From Salarchaeum sp. JOR-1 (GTDB lineage Archaea > Halobacteriota > Halobacteria > Halobacteriales > Halobacteriaceae), in NCBI RefSeq assembly GCF_007833275.1, contig NZ_CP042241.1:744001-808000 (forward strand): a DNA stretch of 64,000 nt, in the 5' to 3' direction. A program made the translations under genes and the position numbers. Within the stretch, counting starts at the first letter, position 1; the number at the start of each line of letters is the position of its first letter. The notes below the pieces were generated by a model, which saw only the letters and a program-made list of their open reading frames with translations, had not been told where the DNA came from and searched no databases. This document shows positions 4,784-20,064 of this stretch, piece by piece.

Positions 4784-6085
4784 ATGTCCGACGAGACTAC
4801 CGAGACGCCCGGATTCGACACGCAGAGCGTGCACGCCGGCAGCGACCCCGACCCCGCGACGGGGGCGCGCGCCACCCCGATCTATCAGACTACCTCGTAC
4901 GAGTTCGCGGACGCCGACGACGCGGCCGCCCAGTTCGCGCTGGAGAAACCAGGCCACATCTACTCGCGGCTGATGAACCCGACCGTGGACGTGCTACAAG
5001 ACCGCCTCGCGGCGCTCGAAGGCGGCGTCGGCGCGGTCGCCACCTCCTCGGGGATGGCCGCGTTGAACGTCGCGACGTTCCTGCTCGCGGAAGCCGGCGA
5101 CAACATCGTCGCGGCGTCCGCGCTCTACGGCGGCACCCACACCTACCTCAGTCACACCGTCGAGCGCCGCGGCGTCACCACGCGCTTCGTGGACACCCTC
5201 GACGTGGACGCCTACGAGGACGCTATCGACGAGGACACCGCGTACGTGCTCGTGGAGACCATCGGGAACCCCGCGCTCGTCACGCCCGACCTCGGAGCCA
5301 TCGCGGACGTGGCGCACGAGCACGACACGCCGCTCGTCGTGGACAACACGTTCGCGACGCCCGCGCTCTGCAACCCAATCGAGCACGGCGCGGACGTCGT
5401 CTGGCACTCCACCACGAAGTGGCTGCACGGCGGCGGTACGACCGTCGGCGGCGCGCTCGTCGACGCGGGCAACTTCGACTGGCAGGCGAACGCGGACTCG
5501 TATCCCGAAATCGGCGCGGACAACCCCGCCTACCACGGCGTGAACTTCGCGGAGCGCTTCGGGGACGCCGCGTTCACGTACGCCGCCATCGCCAGGGGCC
5601 TCCGCGACCTCGGGAACCAGCAATCCCCGTTCGACGCGTGGACGACCCTCCAGGGCATGGAGTCCCTCCCGCTCCGCATGAACCGGCACTCCGAGAACGC
5701 GCAGGTCGTCGCCGAGTACCTCCAAGACCACGACGCCGTCTCCTGGGTGAACTATCCCGGCCTGGAGTCCCACGAGACGCACGACGCCGCGAGCGAGTAC
5801 CTCGACGGCGGGTACGGCGGCATGCTCACGTTCGGCCTCGACGCCGGCTACGACGCCGCCCGCGCGACCGTCGAGAACACCGACCTCGCCAGCCTCCTCG
5901 CGAACGTCGGGGACGCGAAGACGCTCGTCATCCACCCCGCGAGCACCACCCACCAGCAACTCAGCGATGACGAACAGGCGGACGCGGGCGTGCTCCCCGA
6001 GATGGTGCGGCTCTCCGTCGGCATCGAGGATCCCGCCGACATCATCGACGACCTCGATCAGGCCATCGCCGCAGCCACCGAATAG
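4784..6085 (+). CDS. metY: O-acetylhomoserine sulfhydrylase (second copy)
   Basis: The 433-residue protein is very similar to the first copy over its whole length ([22 protein letters not shown] lysine in [16 protein letters not shown]; tail [23 protein letters not shown]). An upstream in-frame GTG at 4742 is possible. ATG 4784 aligns with the N-terminus of the paralogue (MSDE...) and follows a 61-base spacer after metX, so I prefer it. The duplication around metX may reflect division between O-acetylhomoserine and another acceptor, or between sulfide and methanethiol. That is inference. Confidence 0.9.
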   Translation: MSDETTETPGFDTQSVHAGSDPDPATGARATPIYQTTSYEFADADDAAAQFALEKPGHIYSRLMNPTVDVLQDRLAALEGGVGAVATSSGMAALNVATFLLAEAGDNIVAASALYGGTHTYLSHTVERRGVTTRFVDTLDVDAYEDAIDEDTAYVLVETIGNPALVTPDLGAIADVAHEHDTPLVVDNTFATPALCNPIEHGADVVWHSTTKWLHGGGTTVGGALVDAGNFDWQANADSYPEIGADNPAYHGVNFAERFGDAAFTYAAIARGLRDLGNQQSPFDAWTTLQGMESLPLRMNRHSENAQVVAEYLQDHDAVSWVNYPGLESHETHDAASEYLDGGYGGMLTFGLDAGYDAARATVENTDLASLLANVGDAKTLVIHPASTTHQQLSDDEQADAGVLPEMVRLSVGIEDPADIIDDLDQAIAAATE

Positions 6086-6883: not shown

Positions 6884-7327
6884 TCAGGCAGGAGTCTCCC
6901 GGCCCGTGAGCGTCTCGCAGTCCAGGCGAACGAGCGCCACCGACACGTCCTCCAGGGGTTCGTCGAACAGCCGGAACGGCGCGAACGCGTCGTTCACGCC
7001 GGCGGGGTCGGGGTCGGCTTCGACTTCGGTCACCGGACCGGTCGCGTGCACGCTCCACGAGTCAAGTTCGCGCGCCTCCGCGGTGGGAGTGGCGTCGTAC
7101 ACGACGTAGCTCGCGCGCTCCGTCGTCTCCAGGAACCGTTTTTTCGTGCTGTCGGGCGTGTTCGCGAACCGGAAGTAGAGGGCGCCGTCCTCGTAACGGT
7201 GGTTGAGCGGGACGCCGTACGCCGCGCCGTCCCGGCAGAGCGAGAGCGTGCCGTGCGTGCGCTCCGCCAGTCGTTCCTCGATTTCGTCCCGCGAGAGTCC
7301 CGTGGTGTACGTGTACGCGGTGTCCAT
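6884..7327 (-). CDS. Pyridoxamine 5'-phosphate oxidase-like flavin-binding protein
   Basis: A 147-residue split-barrel protein with the haloarchaeal PPOX-like pattern: TGLSRDEIEERLAERTHGTL, then GVPLNHRYEDGALYFRFA and TERASYVVYDATP. These match the FMN-binding split barrel seen in small nitroimidazole-reductase-like or haem/F420-binding proteins. The substrate is unknown. ATG 7327 (MDTAYTYTTG) is chosen because the upstream extension to 7372 is Arg/Pro-rich and lies in the probable promoter region of divergent polC. Confidence 0.7.
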   Translation of the reverse strand: MDTAYTYTTGLSRDEIEERLAERTHGTLSLCRDGAAYGVPLNHRYEDGALYFRFANTPDSTKKRFLETTERASYVVYDATPTAEARELDSWSVHATGPVTEVEADPDPAGVNDAFAPFRLFDEPLEDVSVALVRLDCETLTGRETPA

Positions 7328-7411: not shown

Positions 7412-10400
7412 ATGCGCTCCGAGGACGAGGCCTACTTCGAACGACTCGAATCACAGTTGGACGAGGCGTTCGACCTCGCGGAGCGCGCGAAACAGCAGGG
7501 CGGCGACCCCGAACCCGAGGTGGAGATTCCGGTCGCGAAGGACATGGCCGACCGCGTGGAGAACATCCTCGGCATCGACGGCGTCGCCGAGCGCGTCCGC
7601 GAACTCGAGGGCGAGATGAGTCGGGAGGAGGCCGCGCTCGAACTCACCGAGGACTTCGTCGAGGGGACGGTCGGCGACTACGAGACCGACGCGGGGAAGG
7701 TCGAGGGCGCTGTCCGCACCGCGGTCGCCCTGCTCACGGAGGGCGTGGTCGCCGCGCCAATCGAGGGCATCGACCGCGTCGAGGTATTGGAGAACGACGA
7801 CGGCACGGAGTTCGTGAACGTCTACTACGCCGGCCCCATCCGCTCCGCGGGCGGGACGGCGCAGGCCCTGAGCGTGCTCGTCGCGGACTACGCCCGCGCG
7901 CTCCTCGGGATGAGCGAGTACACGGGCCGGGACGACGAGATAGAGCGCTACGCCGAGGAGGTCGCGCTCTACGACTCCGAGACCGGCCTCCAGTACACGC
8001 CGAAGGACACGGAAACAAAATTCATCGCCGAGCACATGCCCATCATGCTCGACGGCGAGGCGACGGGCCAGGAGGAGGTCTCGGGCTTTCGCGACCTCGA
8101 ACGCGTCGACACGAACAACCCCCGGGGCGGCATGTGTCTCGTGCTCGCGGAGGGAATCGCGCTCAAGGCCCCGAAGATTCAGCGGTACACGCGCGGCCTC
8201 GACGAGGTGGACTGGCCGTGGCTCCAGGATCTCATCGACGGCACGTACGACGACACCGACGACGCCGACGACGAGGCTGACGCCGAGAGCGAGGCCGCCG
8301 ACGACGAGGCTGACGCCGAGAGCGAGGCCGACACGGCGTCCGACGGGCCGCCCCGAGTGGACTCCTCGGGGAAGTTCCTCCGCGACCTCATCGCCGGCCG
8401 CCCCGTCTTCGGCCACCCCTCTCGCGAAGGCGGGTTCCGATTGCGGTACGGGCGCGCGCGCAACCACGGCTTTGCGACCGCGGGCGTCCACCCCGCGACG
8501 ATGCACCTCGTGGACGACTTCCTCGCCACCGGCACCCAGATCAAGACCGAACGCCCCGGGAAGGCCGCCGGCGTCGTCCCCGTGGACAGCATCGACGGTC
8601 CGACCGTCAAACTCGCGAACGGCGACGTGCGCCGCATCGACGACCCCCGCGAAGCCCTCGAAGTCCGGAACGGCGTCGAGAGGATCCTCGACCTCGGCGA
8701 GTACCTCGTGAACTACGGCGAGTTCGTCGAGAACAACCACCCGCTCGCCCCCGCGTCCTACGTCACGGAGTGGTGGAAACAAGACCTCGACGCGGCCGGC
8801 GCGGACGTCCAGGCGCTCGAAGACTCGCCCTACGTCGACCTCGAACACCCGACGCCCGAGCAAGCACTCGAGTGGGCGGACGAGTACGACGCCCCGCTCC
8901 ACCCCGAGTACACCTACCTCTGGCACGACATTTCGGTACCTGAGTTCGAAGCGCTCGCGGACGCCGTCGCCCGGGGAGAAATCGACGGCGACGAACTCGT
9001 CTTCCCCTACGACGAGGATGTCCGTGAGACCGTCGAGGCCCTCATCCTCCCCCACCACCAGGGCGAGTACATCCGCACCACCGACTGGGAGCCGTTCGTC
9101 CGGTCGCTCGGACTCACTACCGACCTCGAAAAACAGTGGGACGCTCTCAGCCCCGACGCGAGAGAGTGGGAGAACGCGATGAAGGCCGTCGAGGAAGTCG
9201 CGCCCTTCTCCGTGCAGGAACGCGCCCCGACCCGCATCGGGAACCGCATGGGCCGCCCCGAGAAATCCGAATCCCGCGACCTCTCGCCCGCCGTCCACAC
9301 CCTCTTCCCCATCGGCGAAGCCGGCGGCAGCCAGCGGAACGTGGCGAAAGCCGCGAAACACGCCCCCGACATGCAGAGCACGCCCGGCCAGATCGACGTG
9401 CAACTCGGCGTCCGCGAGTGCCCCGACTGCAGCCAGCACACCTACGAAGCCCGGTGTCCCGACTGCGAGGTCTGGACCGACCCCTACTACGAGTGCCCGG
9501 ACTGCGGCGTCGAAGCCCATCCCGACGAATCCGGCCGCGTCGAATGCCCGCGCTGCGACCGCGAACTCGACAACGTCACCACCCAGACCGTCGACCTCCG
9601 CCAGGAGTACGCCGACGCCCTCCAATCCGTCGGCGAACGCGAGAACGCCTACGACATCCTCAAAGGCGTCAAGGGACTCACCTCCTCCGAGAAAGTCCCC
9701 GAACCCATCGAGAAAGGCGTCCTCCGGGCCAAACACGGCGTCACCACGTTCAAGGACGGCACCGTCCGCTACGACATGACCGACCTCCCCGTCACCTCGG
9801 TTCGCCCCAGCGAACTCGACGTCACCGTCCAGCAGTTCCGCGAACTCGGCTACACCGAGGACATCAACGGCGACCCCCTCCAGCACGATGACCAACTCCT
9901 CGAACTCAACGTTCAGGACATCGTCCTCAGCGACGGCGCCGCCGAACACATGCTCAAAACCGCCGACTTCGTCGACGACCTCCTCACCCAATACTACGGC
10001 GTCGACCCCTTCTACGAACTCGACGACCGCGACGACCTCGTCGGCGAACTCGTCTTCGGCATGGCCCCCCACACCAGCGCTGCGACAGTCGGACGCGTCG
10101 TCGGCTTCACCAGCGCCGCCGTCGGCTACGCGCATCCCTACTTCCACGCCGCGAAACGCCGGAATTGTGATGGTGACGAAGATTGCGTGATGCTGTTGAT
10201 GGACGGTCTGCTGAACTTCTCGCGGAGTTACTTGCCGGACAAACGTGGGGGAAGTGTCACCGAGGATTCCCGGCTTGTCGCAGTCGACCCAGAGGACAAC
10301 GTTCGCTTCCTCACGTTCGACGAACTCTGGAACGAGCTGGAGAGTCCGCTCGAGGTCGATGGGAAGTTCCGAAAGCGAACCTGTGTTCACGAGGGATGGC

Positions 10401-12457
10401 GGACGTACGCGTTCGATGAGAACCACCAGGCGTCCCTCCAGCCGATTGAGAAGGCGATTCGGTATCGTGCGAGCGAGGACGAGGTGATGGTTCGGGTGGA
10501 AACGCAGTTCGGACGGTCTCTCGACCTCACCGAACACCACAGTCTCTTCAGGTACGACGACGGAATCGAGGAGGTCGCGGGGGGCGAACTCGAACCGGGC
10601 GACCTCGTCGTCGCACCACAAAGCCTCGATGTTGAGACCGAGGAGACGACGATTGACGTCCTCGACGCAGTCGAAGAACCATATGTCTTCGTCGACGATG
10701 TCGAGCAGTACCTGACTCGTGTCTGGAACGAGGCCAACCGTGGCGACAAGACTCGGGTCGCGTTCGACGGCGGACTCTCGTACCGGCTCAGAAAGAAGAA
10801 ACTCTCCTACGAGATGCTGGAACGACTCTCCGACGAATCCGGAACGACCGCTCCGGATGAATTCACGGTCGGATTGAAGGGCTCGTCGGACGGTATCGCG
10901 CGGTCAATCGATGTCGACGAGGATTTCGCGTGGCTCCTCGGGATGTTTGTCGCCGAGGGATCACTCTCCACTGCGAACCCGACGATACACAACGCGAACG
11001 AGGATCTCATCGAACAAGTCGTCGAAACAACGGTGTCGGCTCTCGGCGTGGAACCCAACGTTCGCTGGTCGAACAAGGCGTACGAGGTCAGATTTCCTGC
11101 TGTGTTCCGGGATGTCCTCTATCACCTCGGTTTCGAGGACGTGGACTCGTACGACTCGACCGAGAAAGTAATTCCCGAGTGTATCCTCCACGCGCCTGAC
11201 GAGGTCGCGCTCGCGTTCGTACGGGGATTCATCGCAGGCGATGGTAGCGAGCCTGCCGATGGCAACGTCACGTCGATTGCCTTCCACACGACGAGCGAGG
11301 ACGTGAAGGACGGGTTCGTCTTCCTTCTCCACCGGTTCGGCCTCGTCGCGAACGTCTCCTATCGAGAGCGTGACGAGACGCGGAACCCGATCTACACTAT
11401 CACTGTTTCCGGCGGTGCGTCGGATAATCCTCTTCGCCGTGTCCTGAACGGGGATGAACCCTACCAGCCGAAGAGTCTCGTCGTCACGATTCCGGAGGCG
11501 CTGATGGAGATTCGGAAGATGGACGTTCCCGACGTGAAACAGATTGTACCGAAATACCTGAAGCGCCGAGACAACGTCTCCCTGGAGAAGCTCCGCGAGA
11601 TGGTCGATGAACTCGACGACCAGAACCTCCCGGAGGCTGCCCGTGAGCGGCTCGACGACATCCGCCCCCTCGTCGACGGCGACCTCTCGTACCTGCGTGT
11701 CACTGACGTCGACGCAATCGACTACGACGGCTACCTCTACGACCTTCAGGTAGGAGGCGACCCCGTATTCACGGCGAACTGGCTCTACGCGCACAACTCG
11801 ATGGACGCGCCGCTGGTGATGTCGAGTCGTATCGACCCGTCGGAAATCGACGACGAGGCGCACAACATGGACGTGGTGCGGCAGTATCCGCGTGAGTTCT
11901 ACGAGGCGAGTCGGGAGCTGGCTGACCCGGAGTCGGTGGACGTGGAGATCGCGGAGGAGAACCTCGGAACCGACCTGGAGTACACGGGGTTCGACCACAC
12001 GCACGACACGTCGAATATCGCGCTCGGCCCCGACCTCTCCGCGTACAAGACGCTCGGGAGTATGATGGAGAAGATGGACGCGCAGCTCGAACTCGCCCGG
12101 AAGCTCCGCGCCGTCGACGAGACGGACGTGGCGGAGCGCGTCATCGAGTACCACTTCCTCCCCGACCTCATCGGGAACCTCCGCGCGTTCAGCCGGCAGG
12201 AGACCCGGTGTCTGGACTGCGGGAAGAAATACAGACGAGTCCCGCTCACGGGCGACTGCCGGGAGTGCGGGGGAACCGTGAACCTCACCGTTCACCGCGG
12301 CTCCGTCAACAAGTACATGGACACCGCGATTCAGGTCGCAGAAGAGTACGACTGCCGGGAGTACACCAAGCAGCGCCTCGAAGTCCTCGAACAATCGCTG
12401 GAGAGCGTCTTCGAGAACGACAAGAACAAGCCCACGACTATTGGTGATTTTATGTAG
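7412..12457 (+). CDS. polC: DNA polymerase D large subunit DP2, intein-containing precursor
   Basis: The 1681-residue precursor is the catalytic subunit of the euryarchaeal D-family replicative polymerase. The N-terminus (MRSEDEAYFERLESQLDEAF) and AGPIRSAGGTAQALSVLVADYAR are DP2 hallmarks. Zinc-binding cysteine clusters occur at about residues 670-715 (CPDCSQHTYEARCPDCEVW and following) and near the C-terminus (CLDCGKKYRR...CRECGG). An intein interrupts the active-site region between PDKRGG and SMDAPLV. Without it the protein is 1166 residues, the usual length. A haloarchaeal acidic linker (about 280-312) contains a perfect 33-base tandem duplication. The small subunit gene is not in this window. 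Confidence 0.95.
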   Translation: MRSEDEAYFERLESQLDEAFDLAERAKQQGGDPEPEVEIPVAKDMADRVENILGIDGVAERVRELEGEMSREEAALELTEDFVEGTVGDYETDAGKVEGAVRTAVALLTEGVVAAPIEGIDRVEVLENDDGTEFVNVYYAGPIRSAGGTAQALSVLVADYARALLGMSEYTGRDDEIERYAEEVALYDSETGLQYTPKDTETKFIAEHMPIMLDGEATGQEEVSGFRDLERVDTNNPRGGMCLVLAEGIALKAPKIQRYTRGLDEVDWPWLQDLIDGTYDDTDDADDEADAESEAADDEADAESEADTASDGPPRVDSSGKFLRDLIAGRPVFGHPSREGGFRLRYGRARNHGFATAGVHPATMHLVDDFLATGTQIKTERPGKAAGVVPVDSIDGPTVKLANGDVRRIDDPREALEVRNGVERILDLGEYLVNYGEFVENNHPLAPASYVTEWWKQDLDAAGADVQALEDSPYVDLEHPTPEQALEWADEYDAPLHPEYTYLWHDISVPEFEALADAVARGEIDGDELVFPYDEDVRETVEALILPHHQGEYIRTTDWEPFVRSLGLTTDLEKQWDALSPDAREWENAMKAVEEVAPFSVQERAPTRIGNRMGRPEKSESRDLSPAVHTLFPIGEAGGSQRNVAKAAKHAPDMQSTPGQIDVQLGVRECPDCSQHTYEARCPDCEVWTDPYYECPDCGVEAHPDESGRVECPRCDRELDNVTTQTVDLRQEYADALQSVGERENAYDILKGVKGLTSSEKVPEPIEKGVLRAKHGVTTFKDGTVRYDMTDLPVTSVRPSELDVTVQQFRELGYTEDINGDPLQHDDQLLELNVQDIVLSDGAAEHMLKTADFVDDLLTQYYGVDPFYELDDRDDLVGELVFGMAPHTSAATVGRVVGFTSAAVGYAHPYFHAAKRRNCDGDEDCVMLLMDGLLNFSRSYLPDKRGGSVTEDSRLVAVDPEDNVRFLTFDELWNELESPLEVDGKFRKRTCVHEGWRTYAFDENHQASLQPIEKAIRYRASEDEVMVRVETQFGRSLDLTEHHSLFRYDDGIEEVAGGELEPGDLVVAPQSLDVETEETTIDVLDAVEEPYVFVDDVEQYLTRVWNEANRGDKTRVAFDGGLSYRLRKKKLSYEMLERLSDESGTTAPDEFTVGLKGSSDGIARSIDVDEDFAWLLGMFVAEGSLSTANPTIHNANEDLIEQVVETTVSALGVEPNVRWSNKAYEVRFPAVFRDVLYHLGFEDVDSYDSTEKVIPECILHAPDEVALAFVRGFIAGDGSEPADGNVTSIAFHTTSEDVKDGFVFLLHRFGLVANVSYRERDETRNPIYTITVSGGASDNPLRRVLNGDEPYQPKSLVVTIPEALMEIRKMDVPDVKQIVPKYLKRRDNVSLEKLREMVDELDDQNLPEAARERLDDIRPLVDGDLSYLRVTDVDAIDYDGYLYDLQVGGDPVFTANWLYAHNSMDAPLVMSSRIDPSEIDDEAHNMDVVRQYPREFYEASRELADPESVDVEIAEENLGTDLEYTGFDHTHDTSNIALGPDLSAYKTLGSMMEKMDAQLELARKLRAVDETDVAERVIEYHFLPDLIGNLRAFSRQETRCLDCGKKYRRVPLTGDCRECGGTVNLTVHRGSVNKYMDTAIQVAEEYDCREYTKQRLEVLEQSLESVFENDKNKPTTIGDFM
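8264..8329 (+). repeat. Perfect 2 x 33-bp tandem duplication in polC linker
   Basis: Bases 8264-8296 and 8297-8329 are identical and encode ADDEADAESEA twice. The repeat lies in the acidic linker, keeps the frame and is flanked by further Asp/Glu/Ala codons. Replication slippage in a tolerant linker is the likely origin. Confidence 0.9.
10253..11797 (+). mobile_element. Intein with LAGLIDADG homing endonuclease in PolC
   Basis: The 515-codon insertion begins at Ser1 (SVTEDSRLVAVDPEDN, block A) directly after extein PDKRGG and ends in ...ANWLYAHN, followed by Ser+1 of the extein (SMDAPLV). Block B is RSLDLTEHHSLF (T-x-x-H). The two LAGLIDADG motifs are WLLGMFVAEGS (about intein residue 227) and FVRGFIAGDGS (about 322). 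Both keep the acidic residue, so the endonuclease may be active. Removal restores a continuous DP2 sequence. The intein has a more mixed codon third base than the surrounding polC gene. Confidence 0.93.
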
Positions 12458-12555
12458 TGGCGAGTCGTGCGTGACGAGTGGGACACTTCTTCCCTCGCCC
12501 GCACTAATCTTCTACAATACCTCTTCAGTAGGACAAGACTTTTTACAACGCCCGC

Positions 12556-12775
12556 CTTATTCATTGAATAAGAACATACACGCGCTCCCGGGCCACCTAG
12601 ACGGGGTGGCCAAAGTGGATTCCGTTGGGAACGGAAGTACGCCCCCTGGATTCCCCGGGATTCGTGGGGGAGAGTCCGTCATCTTGATTCGGTTCTCTCC
12701 CCTGCTGGCGTACTCCCGAAAATCGCGTGTAACACCATAATAGCTCACCCATCCGTTGAAAGCGAGGGGTATTTT
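12556..12775 (+). ncRNA. Candidate structured RNA with a closed multi-branch fold
   Basis: Nested and adjacent perfect helices can be drawn. They are CTTATTC/GAATAAG (12556-12572); a closing helix TACACGCG/CGCGTGTA (12577-12584 with 12724-12731); and inside it GGCCACC/GGTGGCC (12591-12611), TTCCGTT-ggg-AACGGAA (12620-12636) and AGTACGCC/GGCGTACT (12636-12643 with 12707-12714). The last of these contains GGGGAGAG/CTCTCCCC (12667-12674 with 12695-12702). A TATA-like TTTTTA lies at 12540-12545 and a T-rich stretch ATTTTTAC at about 12771-12778. I do not recognise an RNA family. Strand is inferred from the T tract. A hairpin-rich MITE end or DNA replication structure is an alternative. Confidence 0.5.
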
Positions 12776-13079
12776 TACGAACAGTGTCGGCTATGTCTAC
12801 TACACCCGCAAATAACATCGGCTTCGTCCCGGCCTCTATCAAACGAGCCTTCTGACTGCCCCACGCGGGTATGTTGGATTCCATAGGGGCTACCTTTGTC
12901 AAACAAGCTTCTACCTCCTAAAGCGATTTACACGGCCGAATACACGATATCCAGGTGTTACGCTCGATAGCTTCACCCCCTTTCTCTGTGGCGAGAGAAC
13001 CGATAGCGCGCCGTCCATAGCTACCACGCTCCGCACGCCGCACTAGCGAGCGATCACGTTCTCACAGTACGCTTCTTTT

Positions 13080-13135
13080 GCCGGTAAGGGGAGACTGCAG
13101 TTTTTCATTTCGCCGGTTAGTGCTGACTGCAGTTT
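13080..13135. promoter_or_regulatory. Two 32-base-period direct repeats (GCCGGT...GACTGCAGTTT)
   Basis: GCCGGT at 13080 and 13112 and GACTGCAGTTT at 13093 and 13125 recur with an exact 32-base period (about three helical turns). The repeats end 37 bases before the first small gene of the element. Same-face binding of a dimeric regulator, possibly the small protein encoded next, would fit. They could also be replication iterons. Confidence 0.5.
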
Positions 13136-13327: not shown

Positions 13328-13462
13328 ATGAGTACGCAAAAATCAGCAGAGAGTGGTATCGCTACCGTTGAAGAGAATCGAGAAGCGATTGAGTCAATTG
13401 CTGAAAGCGACCTTCCAGCCGCGAGAGTGGCCACGGCGCTCCTAGAGGTGTGTGAGGAATGA
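13328..13462 (+). CDS. 44-residue hypothetical protein of the element
   Basis: The ORF MSTQKSAESGIATVEENREA continues as an amphipathic, mainly helical sequence ending VATALLEVCEE. It begins 33 bases after the previous gene, and its TGA overlaps the ATG of the zinc-ribbon gene (ATGA). This coupling supports it being real. No function is recognised. A helix-forming accessory or regulatory peptide is plausible. Confidence 0.55.
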   Translation: MSTQKSAESGIATVEENREAIESIAESDLPAARVATALLEVCEE

Positions 13463-13659
13463 AGGGTGGGGAAAGTGGGGGACGGTGTGGGCCGTCACGT
13501 GAAGGTTACGTAACGAAACCGCATAATGGTTTTGGTGACGCCGTCGCCGGCTTTGGCTGTCCCGCGTGTGACCGCCCGACCCTTCAAGAAACGCCCGACG
13601 AAGTAACCGACTTCCAGTGTCGTGTGTGTGGCGAGCGTGTCCGCGAGGTGGATCTATGA
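13459..13659 (+). CDS. 66-residue zinc-ribbon protein of the element
   Basis: Two CxxC knuckles, CPAC near residue 34 and CRVC near residue 54 (GCPACDRPTLQETPDE ... FQCRVCGERV), define a single zinc ribbon in the C-terminal half. The N-terminal half is Gly/Arg-rich. It overlaps its upstream neighbour by ATGA and the primase gene by ATGA downstream. The three are therefore translationally coupled, and a role with the primase, for example DNA or protein contact, is likely. That is inference from context. Confidence 0.7.
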   Translation: MKGGESGGRCGPSREGYVTKPHNGFGDAVAGFGCPACDRPTLQETPDEVTDFQCRVCGERVREVDL

Positions 13660-16028
13660 ATCCCCGTGAGGTGCTGGCTGAACGCCTTGCCGACGCGGGA
13701 TTGCTTGAGAACCGCCTAATCCCCGTGGAGGACGGCGGCAAAGCGTCCAAAGTCTACCACAATGACGCGCGACACCGGCGGAGTAGCTTCGAGGACGTCT
13801 CCGGGAATTATGGGGTGTACGCCGGCGCGACACCCGCCGGAGATCGCTGGCTGATTGACGTAGATATTGACGACTACAGCGACGACGCCGATAGTGACGC
13901 GCTCGAAGCGGTGAACGACCTTCCCGACACGTTCACAGTTGAAAGCCCGCATACGGACGGTGAGACGGGCGGCCACCGCTACTACTACATCGAGGGAAAG
14001 GACGTCCACGAGAGTATTGAGGCGTTCCACGGCGCGAAGAACCCCGGTTTGAGTTGGGGTGAGATTCGCGTTCACAACCAGTACGTGGTTGGGCCGGGTT
14101 CCCAGCTTGATGGGTGTAGTAAGGAGTGGTGTGACGAGTGCGCTACTCCGGACGGCGGCCACTATCAGATTGCCACAGACGCCGAGATTGCCGAGATTAC
14201 GCTGGCCGACCTCTTCGATGTGCTACGCGCCGACGAGAGCGACGAGACGCCGTCACACGCCGGCGGGAGTGTGGATACCTCCCGGGACACCCCGGACGCT
14301 GACGGAAGTACGTCACACGCCCGTGCGGTGGCAGAACACTACTCGAATATTGAGGAGTACCTTCAGTTCGGGAGTGACGACCGGAGTGAATCAGACTTCC
14401 ACGTGTGCTGTCGGTTCATCGAACACGGCGTCCCTGAATCCGAAGCCTACCACCTACTTGCGGCGAATGGTAACTCAAAGGTAGACGCTGTGGACGCCGC
14501 ACAGGATTATTGGCAGCGGACGTGGCAGCGCGCGAAACAACAGGTCGGGAGTGACGCGGATACCGAAACACTCCCGTCACAGTCCCGTCCGGACGGTGGG
14601 TCTGCCGCCGTGAACCCCACCCATGACGCCGACAATACGGGTTCGACTACGCCCCAATGGAACGGAGTGTATGAGCAGTACGCGAACGCGAGCGATAGCG
14701 ACGACAAGAAGCCCGCACGGTTCGCAGCGACCAAGGTATTGAGCGAAACCCACCATTGGGCGAACCTCGAAGAAAACGACGTATTGTATGCCTACGACGA
14801 CGATACAGGTATCTATGAGCCGACCGGCGAGAAGCGCGTTCGTGAGCTGTTAGTTGACCACCTCGCGGACCAATACGCGAAAAACGAGAAGTCGGAAATC
14901 CTCGATCAACTACGCGGCCGGCATACCGTCAGCCAAACCGACATGGGCGGCCCACCGAATCACGTCCCTGTCCAGAACGGCGTGCTCGACGTAGCCCCGC
15001 GAGACATTGACCTGAAACCACATAGCCCGGACTACCGATTCTTGGGGTCGGTCGCAACTGACTACGACCCGGACGCCGACTGTCCACGCTTCCGCGCGTT
15101 CCTCGACGACGTGGTGCAGACGGAAGCCGAACGGAAGAAACTCCAAGAATACGCGGGATATACGTTGCTGCATTGGGGACTCCCCCACCACAAGGCGTTA
15201 TTCTTGGTCGGGCCGACCGCGTCCGGGAAGTCGACGTTCTTGGATACGATTCGCGCCGTGCTCGGTGACAATACTGTGGTGTCCCTCACCCCGCAGGAAT
15301 TGACGGGTGAGCGGTTCGCCGGCGCGGAACTATACCAGAGTTGGGCGAACTTCCGGAACGATATTCCGAGTAGTCTGATTGAGGACACGGGCGCGTTCAA
15401 GGAGATTACCGCCGGCGACTCAATCAAAGCCGAGCAGAAATTCAAAGACCCGTTCCGGTTCGAGCCGACCGCGAAACACCTCTTTAGTGCGAACCAACTC
15501 CCGGACGCCGAAACCGATGACGAAGCGTTCTACCGGCGTGTGCTATTGGTTCCGTTCCCGTCCACCGTTCCGAAACAGGAACGTGACCCACACTTAGACG
15601 AGAAACTACAGTCGGAACTATCCGGCGTGTTGAACTGGATGGTCACGGGCCTGCAGCGATTACTACAGCAAGGCGGGTTTACGGCCGACCGAACCCCCGG
15701 TGAAACCCAGCGGACATGGGAGAAGTGGGGGAATACGGTTGACCGCTTCCGCGAGATCTGCTTAGAGAAAACAGACGGCGCGGAACTATCGAAACAGACG
15801 GCATACCACGCCTATCATGCGTTCTGTGAAGCCGAGAGTCTGCCGGCAGAAACCCAGCACAAGATGACGCGCCGGTTGAAGAAAGAAGGGATTGCGGACG
15901 GCAGAGCTACCATTGACGGCAAACAACAGCGCGTGTTTGTCGGGGTGCAACTCACCGGGAAGGGCGAAAGCTACCTTGATGACGACGACGATGATTCACA
16001 GAACAGCGGAATTAGACACTTCGGCTAA
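13656..16028 (+). CDS. PrimPol-helicase (P4/D5-type plasmid or virus primase)
   Basis: The 790-residue replication protein would prime and unwind the element's DNA. The N-terminal AEP/PrimPol domain (about 1-190) has the metal motif WLIDVDIDD, GGHRYYYIEG, and GEIRVHNQYVVGPGSQ. A linker and D5_N-like region lead to an SF3 helicase. Its Walker A is LVGPTASGKSTFLDTIR (about residue 519), and later it shows FRNDIPSSLIEDTGAFKEIT and the sensor FSANQLPDAETDDEAFYRRV. A winged-helix region follows (about 690-780) and the tail is acidic. I use ATG 13656, which overlaps the zinc-ribbon stop, rather than the longer frame from 13617. Iteron-like boxes begin at its stop codon. Confidence 0.9.
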   Translation: MNPREVLAERLADAGLLENRLIPVEDGGKASKVYHNDARHRRSSFEDVSGNYGVYAGATPAGDRWLIDVDIDDYSDDADSDALEAVNDLPDTFTVESPHTDGETGGHRYYYIEGKDVHESIEAFHGAKNPGLSWGEIRVHNQYVVGPGSQLDGCSKEWCDECATPDGGHYQIATDAEIAEITLADLFDVLRADESDETPSHAGGSVDTSRDTPDADGSTSHARAVAEHYSNIEEYLQFGSDDRSESDFHVCCRFIEHGVPESEAYHLLAANGNSKVDAVDAAQDYWQRTWQRAKQQVGSDADTETLPSQSRPDGGSAAVNPTHDADNTGSTTPQWNGVYEQYANASDSDDKKPARFAATKVLSETHHWANLEENDVLYAYDDDTGIYEPTGEKRVRELLVDHLADQYAKNEKSEILDQLRGRHTVSQTDMGGPPNHVPVQNGVLDVAPRDIDLKPHSPDYRFLGSVATDYDPDADCPRFRAFLDDVVQTEAERKKLQEYAGYTLLHWGLPHHKALFLVGPTASGKSTFLDTIRAVLGDNTVVSLTPQELTGERFAGAELYQSWANFRNDIPSSLIEDTGAFKEITAGDSIKAEQKFKDPFRFEPTAKHLFSANQLPDAETDDEAFYRRVLLVPFPSTVPKQERDPHLDEKLQSELSGVLNWMVTGLQRLLQQGGFTADRTPGETQRTWEKWGNTVDRFREICLEKTDGAELSKQTAYHAYHAFCEAESLPAETQHKMTRRLKKEGIADGRATIDGKQQRVFVGVQLTGKGESYLDDDDDDSQNSGIRHFG

Positions 16029-17743: not shown

Positions 17744-18009
17744 GTGAGAGTGACCGCGCGAGCGCGGGCGCGAACGATAGCCTGCCGGAGCGTGACGAGA
17801 TTCTCGGGCTCTTGGAGGACGGGATCGAGGAGGCTCACCGGAAGGTGACGGACGGCCGGGTGTATGATGCGGAGAACGAGAAGGTGCGGATCAAGTGGAT
17901 TCGCGCGCTCGCCTACGCCGCCAATGTCCACCGGCAGATCCAGAACGACCGTGACCTTGAAGAGCTATCTGAGCGGCTTGAGCAACTTGAAGAGGAGGAA
18001 AACCTGTGA
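17740..18009 (+). CDS. 89-residue helical acidic protein of the element
   Basis: MSESDRASAGANDSLPERDE leads into a mainly helical domain (EILGLLEDGIEEAHRKVTDG, VRIKWIRALAYAANVHRQI) and a Glu/Leu-rich C-terminal coiled coil (LEELSERLEQLEEEENL). ATG 17740 overlaps the upstream stop, and its own TGA overlaps the GTG at 18006. It is thus inside a coupled string of four tiny genes. Similar small proteins occur in haloarchaeal proviruses, but I cannot name a role. Confidence 0.6.
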   Translation: MSESDRASAGANDSLPERDEILGLLEDGIEEAHRKVTDGRVYDAENEKVRIKWIRALAYAANVHRQIQNDRDLEELSERLEQLEEEENL

Positions 18010-18200
18010 CACGAAAGAGTAAACGCGAGATTGAGGCGACGCTTGACGAGATTGAACCGAAGCGGAAGGAGTGGCCGGCGGACGTGGATCCGTTTGTGCT
18101 TCGGGAGATGGCCGGCGGCTGGGATGAGATCCCGAAAGAAGTGCTGGCTGAATCGTGGCGGAACGCCTTACAGCCTGTTGATAATGACGCGGAAGAGTAA
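18006..18200 (+). CDS. 64-residue protein with MTRKSKREIE N-terminus (copy 1)
   Basis: GTG 18006 overlaps the previous stop (GTGA). The sequence M-T-R-K-S-K-R-E-I-E-A-T-L-D is basic and then acidic. Its tail, MAGGWDEIPKEVLAESWRN, is helical. The first 15 residues are nearly repeated at the start of the next gene (18184), with which it overlaps by 17 bases. A short tandem duplication followed by divergence explains the pair. The function is unknown; the basic N-terminus may bind nucleic acid. Confidence 0.6.
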   Translation: MTRKSKREIEATLDEIEPKRKEWPADVDPFVLREMAGGWDEIPKEVLAESWRNALQPVDNDAEE

Positions 18201-18414
18201 GCGCGAGATCGAACGAACGATTGACGACTTAGCCCCGGAGCCGGGCGACGAGTACCCACACGTGGAGAGTCTCGCTATGCTACTGGGGTATGAGTGGGAC
18301 TTTGAATCACTGGGCGAGGAGCGGCTTGTCGAACGCGAAGGGGACGGCAAGGTGTTTTACGTCCCTGAAGAGTTTGAAACAGCGGTGTGTGACGTATTAT
18401 CTGGCGACGAGTAG
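18184..18414 (+). CDS. 76-residue protein with MTRKSKREIE N-terminus (copy 2)
   Basis: It begins MTRKSKREIERTIDDLAPEP, matching the first gene of the pair, but has a different C-terminal domain (ESLAMLLGYEWDFESLGEER, KVFYVPEEFETAVCDVL) with a small mixed alpha/beta look. It is the last rightward gene and converges on the integrase across an inverted repeat. The function is unknown. Confidence 0.6.
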   Translation: MTRKSKREIERTIDDLAPEPGDEYPHVESLAMLLGYEWDFESLGEERLVEREGDGKVFYVPEEFETAVCDVLSGDE

Positions 18415-18539: not shown

Positions 18540-19841
18540 TTACTCGTCGTCGTCGGATAACGCTTCAAGCAGCTTTGCCTTCTTGTCGGCCGGCAGATCC
18601 GCTATAATCTCGTCTAGCGTATCGACGTTTTCCTGTTGGTCGCTCCCCGGTTCAGTCTCCGCATAGGACTGTTTCAAGTCATCCTGTATCTGTTCCTGTG
18701 CGGCCTGTGCGTCCGGCGTAAACACGTTCCCACACCGACTGCAGGCCTTGGCGTCCGGCGCGAGAGAGTTCCCACACACGTCGCACACGTCCGGCGTAAG
18801 CGGACTATCGTTCTCCGGTTCTCGAATCCCCCACGCCTCTTCGGCGCGCTGTACGTGATCGTCGCCGGACAGATGGCTATACGTCGTTTCCATGACTTGT
18901 GAATCCGCCGCGTGCCCAATCAGGTACTTGATCGTGTCATGAGGGAGGTCGTAATCCCGGGCGGCGATAGTCACGAAGTTATGCCGCATAGCGTGGGGAT
19001 GCATCGGCTTCTCAATATCCGTATTCTTCTTGATCCGGGACATGACTTGTCGGATAGTCTCTCCACTAACGGGTTCGGACGGATCCACGGCCGAATACCC
19101 CGGTTTCGCTGTGATTAGGTAGTTCTCCGGGTCGCTGGTATCCGGGTGGTACTCTAGCCAGTTCTGAACAGCGGCTTTCGCGCCCAAGAGCGGGCGGGTT
19201 CCATTCCGGTCGCTCGCGCCCTTCAGTCCGTCCACGTTCGGGTTCAGCCGATACGTTCCCTCTTGTGGGTTCACGTCTTTCAGTCGGAGTGTGCGGAGGG
19301 CTTCACGGCGCTGGCCGGTGTATAGGAGTAACTGGAAAATGAGCTTATCCCGTGGGCCGCCACAGGCTTCCCGGGCTTCGTGGATTTCCTCTTTGGTCAG
19401 CATATCCCCGGGGTTCACGTGTGAGTCCTTCTGGTCGAACATCGGAATATCCGAAGGGTCTACTGCATAGTCGTGGTAGCCGTAGAACTTCCGTAAGGCG
19501 GCTTGATACGACCGGAGCGTAGATTTCTGAATCCCGGAGTCTTTGACTGTGGGGTGGCGGCCGTCGTGCATCGCCTGAATGTCTTGTTTCAGGTCGTCCA
19601 CAGTCGCGGTGGTAAGGTCACGTTCGCGCGCGAACTGCATGAGGCGGTACAGCCACGACATGATTGTTCCGGGGGTTCGGGTGCCTTCTCCCTCCGGCGT
19701 GGACGTCATTACGTTGTGGTCGTCGTAGGCGTCACAGAGTTCGCGGACGGCGGCTGCGGTATTCTCGTCTATTTCGCCGGCGTCGACGTATTCCTCGAAG
19801 GTTTCGCGCCGTCGTTCGTATTTCTCTCGGGGTGTGGTCAT
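18540..19841 (-). CDS. Tyrosine recombinase/integrase with C-terminal zinc ribbon
   Basis: The 433-residue integrase would insert and excise the element. The SAM-like core-binding domain lies at about residues 60-160. The catalytic domain shows Arg I in LLYTGQRREALRTLRLKD, the box II H-x-x-R in MHPHAMRHNFVTIAARD, and the late motif YLIGHAADSQVMETTYSHL with the Tyr nucleophile. After this a zinc ribbon (CDVCGNSLAPDAKACSRCGN) and a helical acidic tail extend the protein. Many haloarchaeal provirus integrases share this zinc-ribbon extension. ATG 19841 (MTTPREKYERRRETF) is preferred to the upstream frame start at 19895. The gene faces the right end of the element, as expected for an integrase beside its att site. 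Confidence 0.92.
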   Translation of the reverse strand: MTTPREKYERRRETFEEYVDAGEIDENTAAAVRELCDAYDDHNVMTSTPEGEGTRTPGTIMSWLYRLMQFARERDLTTATVDDLKQDIQAMHDGRHPTVKDSGIQKSTLRSYQAALRKFYGYHDYAVDPSDIPMFDQKDSHVNPGDMLTKEEIHEAREACGGPRDKLIFQLLLYTGQRREALRTLRLKDVNPQEGTYRLNPNVDGLKGASDRNGTRPLLGAKAAVQNWLEYHPDTSDPENYLITAKPGYSAVDPSEPVSGETIRQVMSRIKKNTDIEKPMHPHAMRHNFVTIAARDYDLPHDTIKYLIGHAADSQVMETTYSHLSGDDHVQRAEEAWGIREPENDSPLTPDVCDVCGNSLAPDAKACSRCGNVFTPDAQAAQEQIQDDLKQSYAETEPGSDQQENVDTLDEIIADLPADKKAKLLEALSDDDE

Positions 19842-19904: not shown

Positions 19905-19937
19905 ACAAGAACAAGCAGTCTGGGATCGCGGACTTCA
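19905..19937. repeat. 33-base direct repeat copy 1, candidate att-related site
   Basis: It begins ACAAGAACAAGCAGTCTGGG and ends GCGGACTTCA. It differs from copy 2 (20032-20064) at a single base. A weaker match continues for about 23 more bases (ending TGCGCGG in both). It lies 64 bases upstream of the integrase start. The position suggests an att core or a remnant of repeated integration, but no left-end partner was found. Confidence 0.45.
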
Positions 19938-20031
19938 TGTAGTCGTCCGGGACGTGCGCGGTTTTCCGTCCAGATTTTGCGAGGAGCGGTGTGCTGTGTC
20001 CATCCGACGAGTAAACGGTGGGTGTAGGGCG

Positions 20032-20064
20032 ACAAGAACAGGCAGTCTGGGATCGCGGACTTCA
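20032..20064. repeat. 33-base direct repeat copy 2, candidate att-related site
   Basis: Identical to copy 1 except A to G at the tenth base. The spacing between copies is 127 bases. To its right the G+C-rich chromosomal pattern resumes, so this copy may mark the right boundary of the element. Confidence 0.45.

Follow-up and report, generated by a model that had tools for sequence, protein, structure and literature searches.

A putative regulatory RNA heading the replication genes of a satellite-like integrative element in Salarchaeum, and a family of structured leader RNAs in related haloarchaeal elements

The window, a stretch of 64,000 nucleotides from Salarchaeum sp. JOR-1 (contig NZ_CP042241.1, positions 744,001 to 808,000), carries an integrative element of about 7.5 kb at the 3' end of polC, and it is within this element that the structured RNA candidate considered here (hereafter the window RNA) is located. 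The polC end of a congener (G025, L033) is uninterrupted and followed by a permease gene, and because it aligns to the window up to 12431 and again from 19905 onward, with identical att cores at the two edges, the element is delimited to about 12.42-19.92 kb; the final 8 codons of polC and the stop come from the element. The features of the locus are collected in Table 1.

Table 1. Features of the element and of the window RNA, with positions counted from the first letter of the window.
Feature	Position	Strand	Remarks
attL core ACAAGAACAAGC	12420-12431	+	in polC 3' end; identical core at 19905-19916
TATA-like box CTTTTTACAA	12539-12548	+	about 30 bp ahead of the closing stem; by sequence
Palindrome CTTATTC-att-GAATAAG	12556-12562/12566-12572	+	7 bp; predicted start site, outside P1
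Window RNA candidate	12577-12731	+	closed by P1; shuffle test on 12574-12733
P1 closing stem TACACGCG/CGCGTGTA	12577-12584/12724-12731	+	8 bp; helix located exactly
P2 hairpin GGCCACC/GGTGGCC	12591-12597/12605-12611	+	fold and exact location
P3 hairpin TTCCG-(TTGGGAA)-CGGAA	12620-12624/12632-12636	+	loop common to related RNA family
P4 arm AGTACGCC/GGCGTACT	12636-12643/12707-12714	+	8 bp
Inner hairpin GGGGAGAG/CTCTCCCC	12667-12674/12695-12702	+	8 bp; within P4 arm
TCCCG behind P4	12714-12718	+	read from sequence
T-rich stretch GGTATTTTTACG	12768-12779	+	by sequence
Iteron-like direct repeats, two of 28 bp	13076-13135	+	82% alike, spaced 32 bp
VapB-type/DUF7557-like small ORF, 40 aa	13173-13295	+	weak resemblance
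o44, 44-aa ORF	13328-13462	+	in early operon of several related elements
Zinc-finger-like ORF, 66 aa	13459-13659	+	
Prim-Pol/P4-family primase-helicase	13656-16028	+	TIGR01613 E 1.3e-58; PF09250, PF08706
TerS-like protein, 91 aa	17734-18009	+	kin to gene beside large terminase, Halorientalis provirus
Tyrosine integrase	18540-19835	-	PF00589 E 1.7e-19
attR core ACAAGAACAAGC	19905-19916	+	then remnant of original polC end

The iteron-like repeats precede the first ORF of the operon, the primase is followed by small ORFs and then by the tyrosine integrase, and no capsid gene was recognised in the element. A P4-family primase and an integrase with no recognised capsid gene are the marks by which a P4-like satellite was defined, and this gene content would be expected of a satellite-like integrative element; the gene for a TerS-like protein hints, although only suggestively, at dependence on a helper virus. 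Two neighbouring paralogous small ORFs starting with MTRKSKREIE occupy 18006-18414.

The window RNA sits about 150 bp inward from the left attachment site, and not between polC and the element as a sequence-only reading of this DNA had placed it, and about 1 kb upstream of the P4-family primase. Folding against shuffled controls, the check proposed in that reading, gave -91.6 kcal/mol for the plus strand of 12556-12775 against -70.6 +/- 4.6 in 200 dinucleotide shuffles (z -4.6), none of which matched it, and the minus strand also folded significantly, although less well (z -3.6). The closed structure alone (12574-12733) reached -80.6 kcal/mol and a z of about -4.9, again with 0 of 200 shuffles as good, which bears out the assertion that such a junction is not expected by chance; moreover, the helices that had been described, including the 8-bp closing stem around the hairpins, were all recovered by exact location. 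The structure at 12556-12775 is real and not a product of chance.

Within P1, the hairpins P2 and P3 are followed by a P4 arm bearing two more hairpins (12645-12658 and 12667-12702). As read from the sequence, TCCC behind P4 is able to pair with GGGA of the P3 loop in a pseudoknot, and CGG at 12632-12634 pairs either with CCG at 12622-12624, within P3, or with CCG at 12716-12718, as an extension of P4; the minimum-energy fold of 12556-12775 takes the extension. The TATA-like box noted in front of the structure was found, and its position predicts a transcript start a few bases ahead of P1, where the 7-bp palindrome (12556-12572) is a possible operator. The T-rich stretch noted behind the structure is likewise present, but since an ATG follows at 12793 it may just as well be a second TATA box ahead of a 20-codon ORF.

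No tRNA, rRNA or other known RNA was recognisable in the window RNA, in agreement with the sequence-only reading: Rfam 15 at curated thresholds gave 0 matches in the window, a permissive Rfam search of 12440-13120 gave nothing beyond a chance microRNA match (17 bits vs 53), and ARAGORN reported no tRNA or tmRNA at this place. A tRNA-like reading suggested by the stretch GGGGTGGCCAAAGTGG was dropped after ARAGORN and the permissive Rfam search. The sequence is present as a single copy in its own genome; no DNA similarity to it was found in phages and plasmids, only short GC-rich chance matches were obtained in 392 genomes, and viral contigs queried with the primase, the integrase, the ORF family and the RNA pattern yielded no relative.

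Relatives of the element were reached through its proteins. A primase search gave two close relatives, L060 in Haloferax massiliensis and L061, a tailed provirus of Halorientalis marina. The L060 element occupies the same polC site, encodes a primase 75% identical to that of the window and carries, at the equivalent place, a structured region of unrelated sequence (6996-7282, z -7.1; range -5.2 to -7.1). In the noncoding stretch behind the RNA, a TTCTCTGTGGCGAGA-like sequence is common to the window (12895-13010) and L060 (7300-7350). The L061 primase (7989-10373) shares 74% identity with the primase of the satellite-like elements, a likeness possibly due to a helper relationship or to exchange of replication modules, and coding sequence stands where a strongly structured leader would be. 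The TerS-like small protein of the window recurs in L060 (11544-11816) and in L061 (4490-4768), there immediately ahead of the large terminase; in the capsid-less elements it is possibly a small terminase diverting packaging.

Integrase searches added seven further elements at the polC 3' end, which together with the window and L060 makes nine; this primase was recognised in only three of the nine (window, L060, L177). Each of the six that bear o44 has a structured noncoding leader upstream of this ORF, clear in the window, L060, L113 and L114, moderate in L116 (z -2.9) and weak in L177 (z -1.65, 5 of 200 shuffles as good), whereas none of the three without o44 (L112, L115, L119) has structure at the polC edge. 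The structure therefore tracks the early operon and not the integrase. L113 and L114 carry it at some distance from polC, in the interior of the element. An attachment structure, one of three proposals made from the sequence, is not supported in view of this distribution and of the att core at 12420-12431, which lies outside the structure.

Scans upstream of the related operons in L061, L118, L125, L128, L137 and others gave no strong signal, and over half of all such operons examined lack a strongly structured leader. A weak signal in L127 overlaps an apparent tRNA gene and was left out of the count, and a strong fold in L138 was set aside as resembling an iteron origin and not a member of an RNA family. 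This L138 region (5763-5991), with repeated GGTCCA boxes and an 18-bp inverted repeat immediately ahead of a related primase, is likely such an origin.

Six leaders (L113, L114, L117, L143, L148, L161) are alignable with one another and make up an RNA family, new and here called R1, among relatives of the window element; its layout runs from a closing stem P1 through hairpins P2 and P3 to P4, a CCC strand and P1'. Comparison of L117, L114, L113 and L143 shows the P3 loop UGGGAA, CUUAAUUCCCC and CCAGGC kept between changing stems, with a GGGG variant of the loop in L148. This fifth member, retrieved by the R1 covariance model (E 7.6e-8), stands upstream of the primase gene on the Haloterrigena turkmenica plasmid pHTUR06; the sixth, L161, was reached via the ORF family behind the leaders, has a divergent middle part and folds weakly by itself (z -1.5). 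Low-scoring matches of the model (L149-L155) were consistent with chance and were not used, and Rfam gave 0 matches on seven related loci. All six RNAs end roughly 15-20 nt ahead of the start codon of a small ORF, whose family has no Pfam or PHROG match, and AT-rich boxes can be read about 25-45 bp ahead of P1 in the relatives.

P1 to P4 are paired in nearly every R1 member despite differing letters, and the pairing drops when strands are re-dealt among members; because the stems were placed by hand, these counts are descriptive and not proof, and G-U vs A-C counts stand at 2 to 1, too few to decide between RNA and DNA. Compensatory changes, to which the sequence-only reading had looked for support, are matched in R1 by stems that stay paired with changed sequence, but they are not countable for the window sequence itself, which has no DNA relative in the 392 genomes. 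Additionally, in L113, L114, L117, L143 and L148 the 3' strand of P3 is able to pair instead with a segment behind P4, and the minimum-energy folds of these five show the alternative P3/P4 state as a rod.

The window RNA is built like the R1 RNAs and stands at the equivalent place. It shares with them the part order P1, P2, P3, P4, P1' upstream of small early ORFs, perfect stems, a P3 loop containing UGGGA (UUGGGAA), a P4 immediately behind P3, a UCCC behind P4 as a potential pairing partner of the loop, and the same competition between P3 and the P4 extension. It differs in having no alignable sequence except the loop, a longer, branched P4, and only a 20-codon ORF about 60 nt behind it, against 15-20 nt in R1. 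A descriptor of this architecture matched, in 1.11 Mb on both strands, the window RNA, L113, L117 and three chance-like sites, and passed in 3 cases when the window stretch was shuffled 20,000 times, but it was defined with the window RNA already seen. Furthermore, MAFFT gave no alignment including the window RNA that was adequate for a P1-P4 covariance model. Since the R1 covariance model finds no match in the window RNA, tblastn with the R1 downstream ORFs (MSTN/MATN type) finds none in the window element and the descriptor is post hoc, the window RNA is not filed as a proven member.

We put at about an even chance that the window RNA arises at the left promoter of a satellite-like element and serves as a short regulatory RNA or a leader. 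Among the three proposals of the sequence-only reading, an element-encoded regulatory RNA is the best supported, and the place within the element, the TATA-like box and the comparable leaders now add to it. Transcription from the left promoter would start near 12566-12576, and the RNA would fold into a closed junction in which P1 encloses P2, P3 and the P4 arm and in which P3 presumably alternates with the P4 extension. Standing at the head of a replication module of small regulators and then the primase, it would most likely limit the expression of this module until the element is induced, whether by acting in trans as a short RNA or in cis as a leader.

Known systems offer partial parallels. 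In phage P4, itself a satellite-type element with a primase of the P4 family, the primase operon begins with a structured RNA, the CI or leader RNA, which is about 70 nt long and a bacterial antisense terminator RNA. The window RNA is similarly structured and heads the replication operon, with its primase, of such an element, but has a closed multi-helix junction and a putative archaeal promoter; the likeness is one of position and element type, and no relation by sequence or structure is implied. With riboswitches and other structured leaders it shares a promoter-proximal place and, as read from the sequence, two pairings that would exclude each other (P3 or P4 extension), and the R1 RNAs of six relatives stand 15-20 nt ahead of a start codon, as structured leaders do. 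It differs in containing no known aptamer (Rfam negative) and in having no long ORF directly behind it.

This last point, which holds for L060 as well, would also suit a separate trans-acting RNA, not a leader, serving immunity or copy-number control, perhaps with an antisense partner, and aimed at other copies of the element, at a helper or at host transcripts. The second TATA-like box at 12768, a minus-strand TATA-like sequence readable near 12745-12755 and the P3 loop UUGGGAA, which fits the YUNR kissing-loop type, can be counted in its favour. The leader-like spacing in the six R1 relatives argues against it, and we consider it unlikely. The chief non-RNA rival is a structure acting at the DNA level, such as an origin of replication or a packaging site, with hairpins functioning in single-stranded DNA; it would be consistent with the nearby primase, the significant folding of both strands and the GGTCCA boxes of the iteron-like inverted repeat at the equivalent place in L138. 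The iteron-like repeats of the window, however, lie elsewhere and are a better candidate for an origin or operator, and the structure is preceded by a TATA-like box, folds better on the plus strand than on the minus and, in relatives, is the leader to an ORF, which leaves this explanation rather unlikely. That strong folding is a functionless by-product of GC-rich sequence would fit its absence from more than half of the related operons and the fast turnover of sequence, but the z of -4.9 was obtained despite dinucleotide control, the perfect helices are long, and structure recurs at one place with pairing kept in R1; we regard this as improbable. A hairpin-ended MITE or other transposon remnant, suggested by the compact, palindromic form, should show multiple copies and terminal inverted repeats, but the sequence is single-copy with neither terminal repeats nor target duplication seen and no copies in plasmids or phages, so that the idea is refuted as far as one genome allows and hardly deserves credence.

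A wider proposal may be advanced, tentatively and as something possible rather than probable: a new class of bistable regulatory RNAs, carried by integrative elements and plasmids across several haloarchaeal families, would switch the early or replication operons of archaeal satellite-like elements on or off. Haloarchaea have few natural structured regulatory RNAs. Of the protein-coding transcripts of Haloferax volcanii, 72% are leaderless, and the start-site study concerned (PMC4983044) judged structured-leader control untypical of haloarchaea, which makes the recurrence of structured leaders observed here worth testing. Should the class hold, structured-leader control would be an established strategy where it was thought little used, and structured RNAs heading early operons would provide a route to replication control in archaeal satellites and plasmids. 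The sequences given here, one of them on the annotated plasmid pHTUR06, are concrete material for such tests.

The polC locus itself yielded further observations. Elements of the integrase group enter the 3' end of the gene and restore it with a changed tail of eight codons, the tails being PTTIGDFM, PSSLAEFM and PTTIAEFM vs QSGIADFM (window 12420-12457 and 19905-20064; L033). A second att-like copy at 20027-20064 is found in the element-free congener too and is perhaps the scar of an earlier insertion. Moreover, polC carries at about 10252-11799 an in-frame insertion of 1.55 kb, presumably an intein, which the congener lacks.
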